A DNA stretch of 64,000 nt from Saprospiraceae bacterium (GTDB taxonomy: Bacteria > Bacteroidota > Bacteroidia > Chitinophagales > Saprospiraceae), in assembly GCA_020628645.1 (NCBI GenBank), contig JAHDES010000010.1, positions 1 through 64,000 of the forward strand. The letters are read 5' to 3'. This document shows, piece by piece, positions 1 through 56,887 of the stretch. Numbering within the stretch: position 1 is the first letter of the stretch; each line of letters starts with the position of its first letter. A program made the position numbers and the translations under genes. The notes beneath the pieces are model-generated. The model was not told the origin of the DNA. It made no database searches and worked only from the letters and a program-made list of their open reading frames with translations.

Positions 1-3000
1 CACAAGTAATTGTTTTATCAGCAGGAGCAGTAATTACTGGAGGAATAGCATCTTCCACTAATACTTCTTTCCAACATACATTGGTGTTACCAGCATTATC
101 TGTAACGCGTAATTCAACAGTTACTAACTGATCTACATCACAACATGCGAAGCTAACAGTTTCACCCCAAGCAGAAGTACCTAAACATCCGCTAGTACGA
201 CGTACATGAATAGAAGCAATACCACAGTTATCGAAAGAACCTTCGTCTACATCAGCAGCAGTAAGCTGAGCTGATCCGTCAGAACCTAAAGAAACGTGTA
301 ACTCATCATCACAAATTGCAACAGGAGCATTGTCATCTTCTATAGTAATAGTAATTGTTTTCTCAGTAACATTCAAACAGTTATCTTTAGCAAGAATTAC
401 AACTTCAGTAGCACCTAATGGTAAGCCATCTAAAGTTTCACCAGCGCTTAAGTCAACAATTACTAATTGTCCACCACCTTGATAAGCACCACCACCTAAT
501 GTATAAGTAGCAAGTACGTCACCAACACCAGAACAACCATCAGTAATACCTAAATCATCTAAGCTAACATCAGCTGCACAAGTATAAGAATCAGTAGTGC
601 CTACAGTAACATTACCTTGAGCAATTTCTGGACCATCTGTATCTTCAACTTTAATGATTTGCTGGTATTCTTTGTTTGTACCAGTACACCAGTTGATAAC
701 AGTCCAAGTACGAATAATCTTATAACCATCACCACATGTTGGTAATACAACATCTTCGTATGTATAAGAAATATCACATAAATCATGTAAATCATCAGAC
801 AATTCGAAGCAACCGAATTGAGGAGCTCCACTTACATCAGGAGTAACCTCATCTGCAGGTTGACCAGTACACTCAAGTTCAACACTTGATGGTACTTCGA
901 TTTGATCTAACATTGGAGCTTTCAAGCTCACTGTTTGAGTACAAGTAGAAGTATTTCCGTATTTGTCAATTGCTTGCCATGTACGCTCGATCACAGCACC
1001 ATTCCAATCAGATTGGTCACAGTGTGTTTCAACAACCATTTCGTTTAGTAAGCTTACACCTTCTAAAGAACAATCGTATGCAAAGTATGGGTGAGGGAAT
1101 CCACAAGTTACTGTGATAGAAGCAGAAGTAACTTCACCAGTACCTACAGGAGTAACACCGTCACCTGGGCTATTATCAGTAATTAAGATATACCAAGTTC
1201 CACCTAAATTAGCAGGCTGGAATGGTGCAGAGTTTTCAGTTACGTGGAATTCAGGAGAAGTAGTTACTGCATCTGCACAAGAACGACCTAATAATGGAAT
1301 TAAACCAGAAGAGTTACCACCTTGGCTTAATGGTCTTGGAATATACTGATTAGATGTACCTACATCACCAATTTCCTGAAGATCAATAAGACCACCACCT
1401 AAAGCAGTAGGAATTCCTAATTGAACATCTAAGTGAGTAACATCAGTGTGAATCAAGTTCACATTTACAACGATATTTTGAATAATCTCAGCCGTAGGAG
1501 CACAAGATGGGAAGTTTACAGGAATCCAAGTTTGAGATTCTTGTCCAACTAAACCACCAACAATCTGTGTAGGCATTTCGATAGCAGCATCGTAAACATC
1601 TGTATGTGTATAGAACTCATTTAATGCTTCTGGATGCGTACAGTTCAATTCATAATCATTACAAAGTATAACTGGGTCAACTTTGTCTTCTACAGTAAGT
1701 GTACCCCAACAAACGTTTCCGCTTGAAATATGAGTAACTGTATAATTCAATGTTTGCATTAATTCTGCAGGACTTACTAAGTCATTAGCAGGAGTAGTAT
1801 TAGAACCTGGTAAAATTGGGAAACCATTTTCATCTAATGGAAGTCCATTTCCATCAAATACAACTAATGGGTTACCATTTGCATCTAAAATAGTTACTTC
1901 GTATTCGTCAACACAGATATTAGGATCTTCTAATACCATATCTGGCGTAACTTCTACTACACATTCACCTAAGTCATCAGATAATAAGCCTGTGAAAGGA
2001 TTAAGATTTAAATCAAGATTTGTTTGATTGAAAATCTGTGGTCCATTTGCATTTCCAGTATCTGGAGTAGCAAGAGAAATAATTACATTATCGTTACAAG
2101 TCATTGAAGGATTAACATCACTTACAATTACTAAGTCAGCAGTACATTTCACTACGATACCATCGCAGTAAGTATAAGCAGTAACATATTGGTGTTCACC
2201 TACAGGTAATACACCTGCACCTAATCCAACATCACCGTTGAACACTAATGATCCTGAACCTGTATACACAACTTGTGTACCCGAAGCTCCTTGATAATCA
2301 ACACCAAAAGGTAAAACTGTATGTTGAACTAAAATATCACATCCTACTGCATGATTACAAAGTGGGTAACATACTTCAGGCGGTGCTGAAGGTAACATAG
2401 GATTAGTTACTGAACAAGCAGTAGCTCCTGTGATCTCATGATCAGAACAAGCTGGTGGACAAGGTAAAGTGAAGGTATAACGATCTTCATCTTCTCCTGC
2501 ATTTAATACACCACCTGGGAAGAAAGCACCTAAGTTGAAACTAGAAGCCACTAATGACTGACCAAAGAAAGGATCAAGTGGGTTTGTAATTTCAGCACCA
2601 TAATCAAGGTTTGCAGTAATTAATTCCCAGTCTCCAAAGTCCCAACCGTCATTCCAAGCATCGAAAGTAGCAACTGTATATTCATTACATAAATCTAAAG
2701 TCACAGGGTAAGAAACTTGTGTACCTGGTGCTAAACCTTGGTAAGAAATACCATTTACACCAATTACAGCCTGACCTTGCTGTGTTTCACTAGAAATACC
2801 GTCATAAATTTCCCAAGACTGCTCTTCTGGGAATACACCCATTGTTACTCTAAATGTGAAGTCTTCGCTTTCACCTGCACATGGTACATCTGGACATTGA
2901 GTTTTAACGCCAATTACTGTACTAGCAGGAATATTACCTTGATAATCTACAGGATTTCCTGCGTTATCTGTAGCAATGTTTCCGAAAGCATCGTATAATG

Positions 3001-10654: not shown

Positions 10655-10746
10655 ATCAACTACTTCATCCCGAAATCATACCTAATTTCTTTTAGCACTT
10701 ATGTGCCTGCCTGTCATAAAATTTTATTAACCAAGGCAGACAGAGT

Positions 10747-30062: not shown

Positions 30063-31070
30063 TTATTTATTTTGAGGTGTGTACTCAAAGTAAATAACAT
30101 CACTGGTATGCATATCTGCATTGAGAATGAAACGTTGTCGGCGTATGCCATCATCTACCACTACAGCGACTGTATTGGGTGGAGTTTCCCCTAGATTATG
30201 CGCGTATAAGATGAGATAATTAGGAGCTTTTTCATTGGTATCTAGAAATACATCTACTTGATGTGCTTCATGCTGAATTTCGTATTTTTGAAGTATCCAA
30301 TTGCCATTATAATTTAAAGAAATAATATCCCCATCGTCTTTTTGATGGTCATAAACAGTAATGCTTAGATAGTTACTATCTACTTGAATGATTTTTCCTT
30401 TCTCTACTTTACGATTTTTTATTTTTTTGATTTGATTATTTTTATCCCATTGGATGGCTACGGGACCTTTATCTGTTTTATTAAAACTTACATTGTAAGT
30501 TGTTGCTTCTTCTAGGATTAATTCTTCTTCCAATATTTTAGTAAGATGGATAGTACCTGGCGTACAAGCTATTTCGCTGATATGTCCATTGCCTGTCCAT
30601 TCTCCTTCTAAATGCAAGGTATTTCCAATTTTATAAAAATCTAAATCAGCTGTTTTGATACAACTTTCTAAATGGCGTAATTCTTTATGGGTATTAATGT
30701 AATTTTCGATTCGTGTATCTTGATAATGAAGTTGTTCGCCATCCCATCGTCCTGTAAAGTGTTTTTCGTAGGATAGATACCCCATATTATTGGCAAATTT
30801 AGCACGACAAACGAATAATCCATTTACATGGGTTCCTCTATGCTGTATTTCGACGTGCAATTTTCCTGACACGCCTTTAAATTCAGGTTGTCCCTGCCAA
30901 TTGAGTTGGGAGACTTTTCCTTCCCATAAGCCATTTAAATCTACATTTTTATTAGAACGAATTTGGTTGAGTTCGCCTTTGTCTTTTTTGGGAAAATTGA
31001 TTTCAGTTTGGGCAGAAAGTGTGCTTCCTAATATGAAAAAAAACAGTATAAAAGAGATAATTTTAGGCAT
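30063..31070 (-). CDS. Secreted protein of unknown function (335 aa)
   Basis: It starts with a clear signal peptide (MPKIISFILFFFILGSTLSAQ). The mature part is beta-rich with many Trp, His and charged residues. LNGLWEGKVSQLNWQGQPEF and FTGRWDGEQLHYQD look like repeated lipocalin- or beta-sandwich-like strands (GLWEGK, GRWDGE, GEWTGN at about 46, 108 and 164). No family is recognised. It is the second of two minus-strand genes encoding exported proteins, separated by a 122-nt spacer with tandem hairpins, so the pair probably shares a transcript. Confidence 0.8.
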   Translation of the reverse strand: MPKIISFILFFFILGSTLSAQTEINFPKKDKGELNQIRSNKNVDLNGLWEGKVSQLNWQGQPEFKGVSGKLHVEIQHRGTHVNGLFVCRAKFANNMGYLSYEKHFTGRWDGEQLHYQDTRIENYINTHKELRHLESCIKTADLDFYKIGNTLHLEGEWTGNGHISEIACTPGTIHLTKILEEELILEEATTYNVSFNKTDKGPVAIQWDKNNQIKKIKNRKVEKGKIIQVDSNYLSITVYDHQKDDGDIISLNYNGNWILQKYEIQHEAHQVDVFLDTNEKAPNYLILYAHNLGETPPNTVAVVVDDGIRRQRFILNADMHTSDVIYFEYTPQNK

Positions 31071-31114
31071 ATTGATTTTAAAGAAATAGCTTAAAGAAAT
31101 TGATAGTTCAAATT

Positions 31115-31166
31115 TCGAGTTAGGAAACTCGATGTATACAATTCGGAGAAGTTAGGAAACTTCTCC
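31115..31166 (-). repeat. Tandem-hairpin element, copy A
   Basis: Two adjacent hairpins: TCGAGTT/AACTCGA (31115-31121, 31126-31132) and GGAGAAGTT/AACTTCTCC (31145-31153, 31158-31166), both with an AGGA loop on the plus strand. The same two-hairpin layout, with GTTTCC at the turns and different but still complementary outer stems, occurs at 55666-55718. It lies between two minus-strand cistrons. Confidence 0.75.
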
Positions 31167-31192
31167 AATCTTTTAAATTATAGTTTTACGTA

Positions 31193-32197
31193 TCAAAATC
31201 GTTTTTGAATAAAAAAGTGATAGCTTTGATTGCGTAAATTTAAATTTTCATTATCGGCATCACCCACATAATAAGCAGGATTCACAGAATTATTAAAACT
31301 ATTGGACCACAGCGCCCCTAATGCAAAAGAACCTTTAAATAAACTAAAACTTCCCCCAATAATATAGCCCAAATCATGCCGTTCAAAAGGGATATCGACT
31401 CCATTCATCGGTGCTACATTAGTTAAATTAATCGTTTGACTTCCTGAATTTAGATTTTGTCGTTCTGATCCACCTAATAAATAGCCATAATATATCCCTC
31501 CATTGAAATACAAACCAAAACCAAAAGGCGCCACTCCTCCCAAAACTTGCCCACGTACAAAATGATGACGTGTAATCGTGTTTTCGGTATTATTGATTAA
31601 ATTCTCGTAGGCTTGCAAATGATAGAGAACTTCTGGTTGTAAGTACAATCGTTTACGCGCTTGCCAACGTAAATACGTGCCTACTTCATAAGAAAATTGC
31701 TGCTGATAGCTTGGACGGTTGGCATCTACTCTACTATTGCCTAAGCCCACTTTAAATCCTTTACGGATATTCTTTTTTCGTGCATCTCTTTTCTTCTGTT
31801 GATCGATATCTACCACGGGTGGTTTTGGTTGGGGAGGCGTAGGCGTGGGTTGTGGCTCGGCTTTGGGCGTGCGGGGAGCTTTTTGTTCAGTGACTTCTAG
31901 GATAGGCTCAATATTGCCATTGAGTTGATCTCGATCTTTGTACACATCCCATACAATGGCTTTTCCTTTTCCTGCGAGTACATTTCCAATATCGCCTTTT
32001 ACACTTTTGGGTTGAATGATGTCGCCATTATTTAATTTCATGCGAAGATTTACTAAATAAATCATATCTTTCTTGCCTTCTAAATCATAAGAAACTAAAA
32101 GTTGGTCGTCAGTCGTACTGACTTGTATATTAGTAGTGTTTTGAGCAAAAAGGCTGGTGCCAGTAAATAATAAAAGAAAGAAAAAGAACTTATGCAT
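31193..32197 (-). CDS. Outer-membrane beta-barrel-like protein with Pro-rich linker (334 aa)
   Basis: It has a signal peptide (MHKFFFFLLLFTGTSLFAQ), then a small beta domain with VSYDLEGKKDMIYLVNLRMKL and GDIGNVLAGKGKAIVWDVYKD, a pattern I remember from several Bacteroidota envelope proteins. A Pro-rich linker (about residues 108-131) and a basic stretch follow. The C-terminal 180 residues alternate Gly/aromatic strands and end in FFIQKRF, a terminal Phe as usual for outer-membrane barrels. Function is unknown; an envelope role with the downstream secreted protein is inferred from shared strand and spacing. It diverges from the TPR membrane gene. Confidence 0.75.
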   Translation of the reverse strand: MHKFFFFLLLFTGTSLFAQNTTNIQVSTTDDQLLVSYDLEGKKDMIYLVNLRMKLNNGDIIQPKSVKGDIGNVLAGKGKAIVWDVYKDRDQLNGNIEPILEVTEQKAPRTPKAEPQPTPTPPQPKPPVVDIDQQKKRDARKKNIRKGFKVGLGNSRVDANRPSYQQQFSYEVGTYLRWQARKRLYLQPEVLYHLQAYENLINNTENTITRHHFVRGQVLGGVAPFGFGLYFNGGIYYGYLLGGSERQNLNSGSQTINLTNVAPMNGVDIPFERHDLGYIIGGSFSLFKGSFALGALWSNSFNNSVNPAYYVGDADNENLNLRNQSYHFFIQKRF

Positions 32198-54173: not shown

Positions 54174-55601
54174 TTAAAACGCAAAATAAATAAACGGACG
54201 CTCCGTCTGAAAAAAGTACAATACACCAAAAAATAAGAGATAATATACTGCCCAACGTACCCAAAACGGAAAAGAACTAATCTCCAAAGCATGATCTCGA
54301 TTCCCTTGAAAAAATTCAATTCCCATTAAAAGAACAATAAAAAAAATTCCCTTTTGTAAAAAAGATTGATCTAGTAAAGAAAATCCTTCACTATAATTTT
54401 CCTCATTAAAAATACACAAAAACAGATGCATCGCTTGATTCAAACTTTCTGCTCGAAAAAATAACCATGCGATTATCACCACCAAAAAGGTACTACTCCA
54501 TTGTAAAAAATGAATCCCTAAATTAGATGATTTAGATGCTTTCTTACCACCTAAAATAGTATCCTGTAAAATATAAACGCCTCCATGAATTGCCCCCCAT
54601 ATCAAAAAGGTCCAATTGGCACCATGCCACAAGCCACTCACTAAAAAAGTAAGCATCAAATTGAATTGCTGACGTACTTTAGACCTTCGATTTCCCCCCA
54701 AAGGGATATACACATAATCTCGAAACCACTGACTCAACGTAATATGCCAGCCTTGCCAAAACCTTCTTAAATTTCTTGCAAAATAAGGATGCCGAAAATT
54801 AACCGACAATCGAAAACCAAACCATTTTGCAATCCCAATTGCCATATCTGAATAACCCGAAAAGTCGCAATAAATTTGAAAGGCAAATAAAAAACAACCC
54901 AATAATACCATTCCTCCGCCCATCTCATTTGAAGTGGAAAAGATAATGTCAGCATTATTGGCCAATACATCAGCAATGGCTACTTTCTTAAATAAACCCC
55001 ATAAAAATTGCCGAAAACCATCTGCTGCTAAAGCATAAGAAAAGGAGCGTTTGGATTCAAACTGAGGTAATAATTTTGCCGCCCGCTCAATCGGTCCAGC
55101 TACTAACTGTGGAAAGAAACAAACAAAGGTGAAGAAGGCTAATCCATCAGATGTAGGTTTTAATTTCCCTTTATAAATATCAATCGTATAACTCAAGCTT
55201 TGAAACGTATAAAAACTAATTCCAACAGGTAAAATAATAGACAAACTATAGGTATGAAATGGCAATCCCAGCACTTGAAATAAATCAGCTACACTATCCA
55301 CAAAAAAATTGAAGTACTTGAAAAAGCCTAAAATCCCAAGATTAATCAACAAACTTGCATACAATAATCGTTTTTTGGAGCGAGCAGATTTCGATTCATA
55401 CATCCATTTGCCAATCCAAAAATCTGCCGTGGAACTAATCACAATCAAAGATAAAAATCGCCAATCCCACCAGCCATAAAATACATAACTCGCCATTAAG
55501 AGCCATCCATTTTGTAGTAGACGACGATCTTTTCCCAGCCACCAGTACACGCTTAATACTAATGGAAGAAAAAAAACAAACTCAAACGAATTAAATAGCA
55601 T
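54174..55601 (-). CDS. MBOAT family O-acyltransferase (AlgI/DltB-like)
   Basis: The frame is longer, but the ATG at 55601 (MLFNSFEFVFFLPLVLSVYW) is the standard start for the family, giving 475 residues. It is a polytopic inner-membrane protein with about ten helices. Family motifs are intact: GISFYTFQSLSYTIDIY (about 127-143), FFPQLVAGPIER (162-173), FWQGWHITLSQWFRDYVYIP (281-300), and SGLWHGANW with the catalytic His at about 326. It transfers acyl (often acetyl) groups across the membrane for O-acylation of an extracellular glycan. The gene overlaps nothing and precedes the SGNH partner. The glycan is unknown because no polysaccharide synthesis genes are nearby. Confidence 0.9.
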   Translation of the reverse strand: MLFNSFEFVFFLPLVLSVYWWLGKDRRLLQNGWLLMASYVFYGWWDWRFLSLIVISSTADFWIGKWMYESKSARSKKRLLYASLLINLGILGFFKYFNFFVDSVADLFQVLGLPFHTYSLSIILPVGISFYTFQSLSYTIDIYKGKLKPTSDGLAFFTFVCFFPQLVAGPIERAAKLLPQFESKRSFSYALAADGFRQFLWGLFKKVAIADVLANNADIIFSTSNEMGGGMVLLGCFLFAFQIYCDFSGYSDMAIGIAKWFGFRLSVNFRHPYFARNLRRFWQGWHITLSQWFRDYVYIPLGGNRRSKVRQQFNLMLTFLVSGLWHGANWTFLIWGAIHGGVYILQDTILGGKKASKSSNLGIHFLQWSSTFLVVIIAWLFFRAESLNQAMHLFLCIFNEENYSEGFSLLDQSFLQKGIFFIVLLMGIEFFQGNRDHALEISSFPFWVRWAVYYLLFFGVLYFFQTERPFIYFAF

Positions 55602-55665
55602 ACAGACTAAACCCTTTGAAATTGATTGACGTAAAACAATATACAAATACGAAATAAGGAAAGAT

Positions 55666-55718
55666 CAGCCAAGTTTCCTAACTTGGCTGTTTATATCTTT
55701 CGAGTTTCCAAACTCGAA
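55666..55718 (+). repeat. Tandem-hairpin element, copy B
   Basis: CAGCCAAGTT (55666-55675) pairs with AACTTGGCTG (55680-55689), and TTCGAGTTT (55699-55707) with AAACTCGAA (55710-55718). It has the same order and inner sequences (AAGTTTCCTAACTT, then CGAGTTTCC) as copy A at 31115-31166 read on the minus strand. The outer stem bases differ (AGCC/GGCT here, GGAG/CTCC there) yet remain paired. It lies in the divergent region between the MBOAT and aminopeptidase genes. Confidence 0.75.
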
Positions 55719-55786
55719 TTAAGCTTTCTGAATGAAATTTCATTTCTTTGCAAGGATTTTATCCTTAAACCGACTTGATTAATATT

Positions 55787-56887
55787 ATGAATACCATTCT
55801 TTCCAAATACGCCGACTTACTTGTTAATTATTGTGTAGAAATTCAGCGCGGCGATAAATTATACATTCGTACAACTACGCTTGCAGAACCTTTAGTCCGT
55901 GAAGTCTATCGGGCTGCTTTGCGTTCGGGAGCGCATCAAGTGGAAGTTGAATTCGATTTTCCTTCTAAAGAAAGTATTTTCTACCAAGAAGCACAAGAAG
56001 ATCAATTACAACAAGTGCCGCTTTTATACAAAACAGCGATGGAAACCTTTGATGCCTATATTTATATTCGTGCGCCTTTTAATCTTCGAGAAGACACAGG
56101 GGTGGATAGCAGTAAAGTAAAAATTCATAAAAAGGCAAAAGCACCTGTTTCCAAACGCTATTTTGAACGCACAGGGACGCGTGAAATGAAACGCAATTTG
56201 TGTCAATTCCCGACGCAAGCATCGGCTCAATATGCAGGGATGTCTTTAGAAGATTATCAACAATTTATCTACAATGCATGTAATCTATTTAAGGATGATC
56301 CCAAACAAGCTTGGTTGAACGTACGCAAAAATCAACAGAAATATACCGATCATTTAAATAGCTGTCAACACATTCACTATAAAGGAGAAGATATTGATAT
56401 CCAGTTCTCTACCAAAGGACGAACGTGGATCAATTCAGATGGGCAAACGAATATGCCTTCTGGAGAAGTCTATACCTCTCCTGTGGAAGATTCGGTTAAT
56501 GGAACAATTCGATTCTCTTTTCCTGCCATTTATATGGGGCATGAAGTGGAGGATGCGACGCTTTGGGTGAAAGATGGCTATATCGAAAAATGGGAAGCCA
56601 AACGAGGAAAAGATTTCTTAGATCGTATTTTTTCTTTAGATGGAACACGCCGATTTGGCGAAGCAGCCATCGGTACCAACTATAATATTCAACAACTCAC
56701 CAAAAATATTCTATTCGATGAAAAAATAGGTGGTACGATTCATATGGCAATTGGGCAATCTTATATTCAATGTGGTGGTAAAAACGAATCTTCTGTACAT
56801 TGGGATATGATTTCCAATATGCGCAATGGCGGAGAAATTTTAGCTGATGGAGAAAAAATTTATGAAAACGGAGTATTCTTACTCTAA
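55787..56887 (+). CDS. Aminopeptidase, peptidase family M29
   Basis: A cytoplasmic metallo-aminopeptidase of the AmpS/PepS/AmpT family. I chose the ATG at 55787 (MNTILSKYADLLVNYCVEIQ) over an upstream TTG at 55775; length 366 residues. The family's metal ligands are all in place: Glu-227 (SGEVYTSP), Glu-292 (RFGEAAIG), His-319 (GTIHMAIG), and His-338 with Asp-340 (SVHWDMI). The region RAPFNLREDTG, IDIQFSTKGRTWINSDGQTN agrees with the family. It removes N-terminal residues from peptides with two divalent metals. It is probably monocistronic, divergent from the MBOAT gene. Confidence 0.92.
   Translation: MNTILSKYADLLVNYCVEIQRGDKLYIRTTTLAEPLVREVYRAALRSGAHQVEVEFDFPSKESIFYQEAQEDQLQQVPLLYKTAMETFDAYIYIRAPFNLREDTGVDSSKVKIHKKAKAPVSKRYFERTGTREMKRNLCQFPTQASAQYAGMSLEDYQQFIYNACNLFKDDPKQAWLNVRKNQQKYTDHLNSCQHIHYKGEDIDIQFSTKGRTWINSDGQTNMPSGEVYTSPVEDSVNGTIRFSFPAIYMGHEVEDATLWVKDGYIEKWEAKRGKDFLDRIFSLDGTRRFGEAAIGTNYNIQQLTKNILFDEKIGGTIHMAIGQSYIQCGGKNESSVHWDMISNMRNGGEILADGEKIYENGVFLL

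Follow-up and report, generated by a model that had tools for sequence, protein, structure and literature searches.

A family of twin-hairpin repeats in a Saprospiraceae genome, probably REP-like elements moved by a RAYT

The REP, BIME and REPIN repeats of Proteobacteria are short intergenic palindromes with alternative complementary letters in their stems, and their RAYTs each have a hairpin family of their own (PMC8266576, PMC3733652, PMC2817692). The repeat described here is alike in these respects; it differs in that its two hairpins face the same way and are accompanied by GATN and TATC, whereas the proteobacterial repeats carry GTAG and usually stand in inverted pairs (PMC8266576, PMC3733652, PMC2817692). 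The CGTC-tagged palindromes are likewise short, with stems of 8-9 bp and loops of 4-5 bases, and are known in Bacteroidetes too; they are described as flanking no transposase gene (PMC3733652). RAYTs of subclass 2.6 (group 5), which occur mostly in Bacteroidetes, have atypical structures on their flanks that lack GT[AG]G and recur elsewhere in the genome (PMC6006769). No paper was found that joins 'repetitive extragenic palindromic' with 'Saprospir', nor one on REP-associated transposases in Flavobacteri*; among the matches listed for TnpAREP, Bacteroidetes and head-to-tail, only PMC6006769 has TnpAREP. The element is of a known kind, REP/RAYT, with an unusual head-to-tail double-hairpin layout.

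Two copies lie in the window, by which we mean the whole stretch of 64,000 nucleotides that was analysed. Tandem hairpins with a common inner sequence had been pointed out in an initial annotation at 31115-31166 (minus strand) and 55666-55718 (plus strand), and they are present at both sites. The copies and their neighbouring genes are as follows.

31112..31171, minus strand: copy A of the twin-hairpin element (model positions 1-60; covariance-model match, 79.2 bits)
31168..31170, minus strand: conserved unpaired GAT of copy A, directly 5' of hairpin 1, putative guide
31145..31166, minus strand: hairpin 1 of copy A, stem 9 bp, loop TCCT
31133..31144, minus strand: spacer of copy A, with TATA (31138 down to 31135) in place of the usual TATC
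31115..31132, minus strand: hairpin 2 of copy A, stem 7 bp, loop TCCT, orientation as hairpin 1
30063-31070, minus strand: gene without Pfam match, about 40 nt downstream of copy A
31193-32197, minus strand: gene with a sub-threshold OMP_b-brl_2 match, about 20 nt upstream of copy A
55662..55720, plus strand: copy B of the twin-hairpin element (covariance-model match, 60.7 bits)
55663..55665, plus strand: GAT of copy B, directly 5' of hairpin 1, putative guide
55666..55689, plus strand: hairpin 1 of copy B, stem 10 bp, loop TCCT
55694..55697, plus strand: spacer TATC of copy B, ahead of hairpin 2, putative guide or cleavage motif
55699..55718, plus strand: hairpin 2 of copy B, stem 8 bp, loop TCCA, orientation as hairpin 1
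54174-55646, minus strand: MBOAT acyltransferase gene beside copy B, divergent from the peptidase gene
55775-56887, plus strand: M29 peptidase gene beside copy B, divergent from the acyltransferase gene

In both copies a short spacer separates hairpin 1 from hairpin 2, and hairpin 1 is the longer of the two. As the annotation had stated, the outer stem of hairpin 1 differs between them yet stays complementary (GGAG/CTCC versus AGCC/GGCT), and the two sites are unrelated in gene content, with the Pfam-less and OMP_b-brl_2-like genes at one and the acyltransferase and peptidase genes at the other. Folded as single-stranded DNA, copy A reached a z of -5.8 on either strand and copy B -9.1 and -7.4; in each of the four folds none of 200 shuffles was equally stable. 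The description of the element as two-copy is correct for the window and wrong for the genome, where at least 92 matches to a covariance model were obtained at E<=1.

The twin hairpins are members of a family of about 80 short, mostly intergenic DNA repeats. In the genome (6.18 Mb, 98 contigs) the core AGTTTCCTAACT occurs 73 times, compared with 2 occurrences of the reversed control. The covariance model, built from 17 copies, gave at least 79 matches at E<=1e-4 from the 150 candidates scored out of 3059 at first look, so that the genome search that the annotation had proposed revealed further copies in abundance. For alignment, 80 matches from 77 chosen sources (fetched stretches) were fitted to the model. 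Of these 80 copies 72 show no overlap of 15 nt or more with an open reading frame of at least 80 aa; such reading frames make up 86% of the fetched sequence.

The unit measures about 60 nt and comprises GATN, hairpin 1, a TATC-bearing spacer and hairpin 2, with both hairpins in the same orientation. Its consensus reads GATN, GGNGAAGTT-TCCT-AACTTCNCC (hairpin 1), the spacer NAAANATATC, 2 bases, GCGAGTT-TCCT-AACTCGC (hairpin 2) and AAA. The GAT 5' of hairpin 1 is near-invariant (G in 78, A in 80 and T in 75 of 80 copies), as is the TAT of the spacer (77, 75 and 75 of 80), which is followed by C in 57 of 80. Beyond the unit conservation falls off, except for a general A-richness of the flanks, whose composition contains no sharp target motif. 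A finder requiring two hairpins with stems of at least 5 detected both hairpins in 69 of the 80 copies, and their loop-to-loop distance was nearly fixed: 32 nt in 51 copies, 31 in 12, 30 in three, and 28, 33 and 61 once each. In two of these 69 one hairpin is clearly inverted; the rest are same-facing as far as the loop tells, which argues against REPINs, that is, two inverted REPs. The inverted hairpins sit in otherwise normal copies and show the loop AGGA instead of TCCT (hairpin 1 in L123:1462-1521, hairpin 2 in L114:2447-2504). At L127:1536-1570 and L078:286-344, beside a normal copy, the stem of hairpin 1 is lengthened through GAT into a long palindrome.

At the hairpin foot of the 80 aligned copies neither GT[AG]G nor a conserved CGTC tag was found, GATN and TATC standing there instead. 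The latter result speaks against CGTC REPs. The former excludes canonical REPs only, since GT[AG]G is also absent from the structures of subclass 2.6 (PMC6006769).

A second dispersed palindrome, CCTGTC N12-32 GCRGACAG, was matched at 17 genomic sites, compared with 0 for its control, and a solo copy of it lies in the window at 10706-10743 (plus strand). It is also present inside seven twin-hairpin copies, some of them damaged, always between ...AG and TTTCC of the loop: in L131 and L142 (hairpin 1), in L134, L140 and L144 (hairpin 2) and in L154 and L155. Four of the seven insertions are among the 17 matches, while the other three are diverged and were spotted by eye. It resembles an insertion that prefers this site of the hairpin. 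Insertion sequences targeting REPs have reportedly been seen, and this palindrome would be comparable. A further repeated palindrome, CAAGGGAACATGTTCCCTTG, is represented with close variants by 8 copies in a 1.19 Mb sample (L198, L203, L205, L208, L213, L220, L243) and looks like either a regulator site or another small repeat.

The annotation had taken the compensatory change in hairpin 1 as a sign that structure is maintained, and the alignment bears this out. Across the 80 copies 98.2% of stem cells are paired, two-sided changes are found at 10 of 16 pairs and in 135 cells (shuffle mean 35), and sliding the partners cuts stem pairing to about 47% or below. A second alignment held 22 copies of 60 nt from four genomes, picked by eye: seven of the 80 from this genome and 15 of 24 listed from relatives, leaving out seven copies of other length, an incomplete copy where a contig ends and a near-duplicate of 60 nt (L283:37-96). 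Here 98.0% of cells are paired, and two-sided changes affect 13 of 16 pairs and 75 cells (shuffles 23). In the same alignment 6 of the 22 copies do not form pair 7-26, and the count of further pair types is only weakly above the shuffles, 21 of 500 of which reach the same number. The stems have 16 G-T cells and 9 A-C cells, a ratio that does not clearly support RNA as the folded molecule. Guide-target pairing between GAT and TATC, conceivable because GAT and ATC are complementary, is not supported by covariation: both motifs are near-invariant and variants such as GAC or TATT are uncompensated. It is further disfavoured by relatives in another genome (G177), which mostly have GTT with AATACC or AATATC.

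Of the eight PF01797 matches in the genome, one is a RAYT gene adjoining copies of the element. This gene (C25:17356-17925) encodes 190 aa with the motifs NHIH, WQ and YIHLNP. Its product scores 95.7 bits against NF047646 (REP_Tyr_transpos; cut-off 80) and so combines HUH and the catalytic tyrosine with a profile match above the cut-off; the best solved-structure match of its family profile is E. coli TnpArep 4er8 (whole-sequence E 1.3e-7). Compared with the motifs of subclass 2.6 (NH[LIV]H, WQ, YIH[QN]NP), NHIH and WQ match and YIHLNP is one residue off. RAYT group 5, or TnpAREP subclass 2.6, is the closest known kind: it shares the occurrence in Bacteroidetes, NHIH and WQ, flanking hairpins without GT[AG]G and genomic copies of these, and differs in YIH[QN]NP (PMC6006769). 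A head-to-tail pair of fixed pitch does not appear in the text of that paper, though it may already stand in its supplementary structure lists (PMC6006769).

The nearer copy of the element (C25:17283-17342, plus strand) ends 13 nt before the start of the RAYT gene, and beside it lies a second, inverted copy (C25:17218-17276, minus strand). Both are upstream of the gene; no model match was found within 1.2 kb downstream. In this genome the link to the RAYT is carried by adjacency on one side, and adjacency on both sides comes from G177, a genome of another genus. The RAYT of G177 has 44% identity to the C25 RAYT (NF047646, 97.1 bits) and is flanked by full model matches upstream (1080-1139, plus strand) and downstream (1966-2025, minus strand); at the partial matches 951-969 and 2080-2098 two further twin structures are visible in the sequence. 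A RAYT beside the copies, which the annotation had named as a sign of a dispersed element, was thus found in both genomes. Two RAYT paralogues of the C25 gene product in the same genome (51% and 46% identity, NF047646 above cut-off) are flanked by hairpins unlike the twin element. The hairpins of both are rare: one has 3 matches at up to one mismatch and 1 in a genome sample, and the other had no match in the genome sample.

Homologues of the C25 RAYT were present in 31 of 60 genomes, this one counted. The element itself has a patchy distribution. Model matches at E<=1e-4 were obtained in 7 of 298 genomes of the family (G000, the present genome, and G002, G074, G083, G177, G180 and G245), where up to 18 candidates were scored per genome and counts per genome are lower bounds. 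With up to 91 candidates scored, G002 gave at least 27 matches, and G001, which has a RAYT, gave none. The only RAYT found in G002 is flanked by hairpins that differ from the twin element. Copies from G245 have many changed stem letters; all those listed retain GAT, and most retain TATC. Of the 7 copies listed from G177 and G083, 6 have GTT as their first tag, and the stems in these two genomes are different once more. A loop of the TTTCC type is conserved in all three genomes. Sequence around copies was fetched from five genomes; of the 15 stretches one contained a RAYT (that of G177), and none was found in the seven around G245 copies.

A RAYT with 45% identity to the C25 RAYT is found in G037, which belongs to another family. 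Another hairpin, CAAGTC-TTTTC-GACTTG, stands in same-strand pairs on either side of this RAYT, with TCTNCCGC-like letters in place of GATN at the first hairpin. This hairpin has 35 matches in G037 (10 exact, the rest with one mismatch; control 0) and none in four other genomes searched. A recount over 20 fetched stretches gave 15 same-strand pairs with a pitch of 31 (10 pairs), 32 (4) or 34 (1), two of which (C108 and C252) have identical sequences and may represent a single site where contigs end. In these stretches 29 of 44 cores were in pairs and no opposite-strand core lay within 60 nt. The nearest named relative found of the C25 RAYT, in a Paludibacter MAG (L149), has close hairpin pairs at the RAYT as well.

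Hairpins beside RAYT genes were also surveyed at 36 loci of Bacteroidota and relatives, including the three of this genome; six with short flanks or short matches were dropped. A hairpin with a stem of at least 7 lay within 250 nt at 19 of the 30 loci used (shuffle mean 2), compared with 2 of 20 control sites 1150-1400 nt from the RAYTs; at 11 of the 30 no such hairpin was found. At ten loci the two sides shared an inner arm (0 in shuffles). Close hairpin pairs, defined by stems of at least 6 lying 4-22 nt apart with no common inner arm required, were found at 10 of 30 loci (shuffle mean 0.08, control 0 of 20). The RAYT tree is poorly resolved, with good support for 5 of its 21 inner branches. 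It does not place L034 and L291 as sisters and is too weak to test co-descent. In G059 three RAYT matches lie within 4 kb on contig 8 (L073, L087) and one on contig 13 (L071). Two of these four have internal stops and at least one has a twin-hairpin-like sequence upstream, which reads as local expansion with decay.

We consider it likely that the twin hairpin is a REP-like element moved by a RAYT near subclass 2.6 (group 5). It would be a non-autonomous DNA repeat whose unit is the head-to-tail hairpin pair. The RAYT, a domesticated transposase with a Y1 HUH single-strand nuclease of the TnpAREP type, probably recognises the folded single strand, GATN and TATC 5' of the two hairpins would substitute as guide or cleavage sites for the usual GTAG guide, and the unit would be copied or moved into new, mostly intergenic sites. 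Copy number, compensatory stems, fixed pitch, RAYT adjacency in several genomes and orientation bias were observed; that the C25 RAYT is the enzyme acting on the element, that the two motifs serve as guide or cleavage sites and that the copies arose by movement is inferred. A near-identical sequence of 60 nt with a conserved loop and unpaired GAT and TATC at about 80 sites points to copying. No clean empty site was found: the peptidase orthologues of G001 and G002 have no element upstream, but the neighbouring sequence differs.

A more specific and rather tentative version takes the twin hairpin for an entire single-strand transposon that has no cargo, an IS200/IS605-like element shrunk to about 60 nt. 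Its direct hairpins would be the left and right ends, read by the RAYT on one strand. In IS200/IS605 both end hairpins lie on one strand. The ends of these elements (IS608) resemble the twin element in the guide tetranucleotide 5' of the hairpin foot and in the strand-specific Y1 enzyme (PMC8266576, PMC6006769); the twin element differs in having no cargo and hairpins about 10 nt apart, and the three IS200-like genes of the genome have other hairpins. TnpAREP of E. coli recognises single-stranded REP and not its inverse (PMC8266576). If this preference is valid here, direct twin hairpins would offer two substrates on one strand, like IS200/IS605 ends.

The copies are not oriented at random with respect to genes. 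Of the 73 copies that could be placed between open reading frames, 54 lie between codirectional genes, and 45 of these are oriented along transcription (p 7e-7; 43 of 53 in a cruder first count); at 10 copies the neighbouring genes converge, and at 9 they diverge. Replication strand was rejected as the source of this bias, as intergenic GC skew matches the strand of the element in 27 of 54 cases and codon-3 skew does so in 25 of 46; the test is weak, since skew in this genome correlates negatively with gene strand and may be a poor guide to the direction of replication. The bias may arise because transcription exposes the target strand, or by counter-selection against the other orientation, in which NATC and then mostly T-rich sequence come after hairpin 1, so that it would be more terminator-like.

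The same bias, which did not follow skew, is what a cis-acting RNA element would show, for example an mRNA stabiliser, a processing site or a weak terminator selected independently after genes without any transposase. By a simple, loose scan hairpin 1 of both window copies is indeed terminator-like, in copy A on the strand opposite the element and in copy B on both strands, the opposite strand being the more terminator-like because of the A-rich 5' flank. On the strand that follows transcription, however, hairpin 2 is followed by A-rich rather than T-rich sequence and hairpin 1 by NAAANATATC, and an intrinsic terminator as the main role was rejected since no T run lies downstream of the hairpins there. 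Independent selection also fits poorly with the near-identical units at some 80 sites, with the patchy presence among genomes, with the adjacency to RAYTs and with stem mismatches that favour RNA by no clear margin. Against Rfam, the window gave only tRNA at gathering score and three copy-bearing loci gave no match at E<=1. We therefore regard an RNA element alone as improbable. Of the two readings offered by the annotation, the REP-like dispersed element is the one upheld, by about 80 copies, 72 of 80 of them intergenic, and the adjoining RAYT; a regulatory RNA is kept as a possible added role, as orientation follows transcription.

Two other explanations are very unlikely. Three strong PF01797 matches (L031-L033) might have made the element a miniature derivative of ordinary IS200/IS605 elements of the genome, yet their flanking hairpins differ in sequence and the core is in none of the three loci, which largely refutes this origin. 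Paired palindromes bound by a regulator or nucleoid protein would suit the fixed pitch, as 31-32 nt correspond to about three helical turns and a protein could sit on one face. A protein reading the duplex would not, however, demand that outer stem letters vary with pairing retained, and sequence is conserved instead in GAT, TATC, the loop and the inner stem. Hairpins do arise by chance in AT-rich intergenic DNA: one dinucleotide shuffle of the 1.19 Mb sample, which was chosen around copies and so is enriched for them, contained 46 perfect hairpins with stems of at least 8. The sample itself contains 135, and 70 of these have the AGTT inner arm of the family. For chance hairpins as an explanation, the core count, the at least 79 model matches, the stability of the folds relative to shuffles and the two-sided stem changes leave practically no room.

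If the REP-like element is moved as a transposon with two ends, the pitch of 31-32 nt common to this genome and G037 despite different hairpins would suggest a single complex that holds two hairpins. This clade's RAYTs would then actively move a unit whose construction departs from that of REPINs. The way in which RAYTs spread REPs is not yet settled (PMC8266576), and the best-studied systems have GTAG tags and mostly inverted pairs. Direct twin hairpins with other tags and a recurrent pitch would offer a comparative test of what the enzyme measures: the loop, the foot motif or the distance between hairpins.
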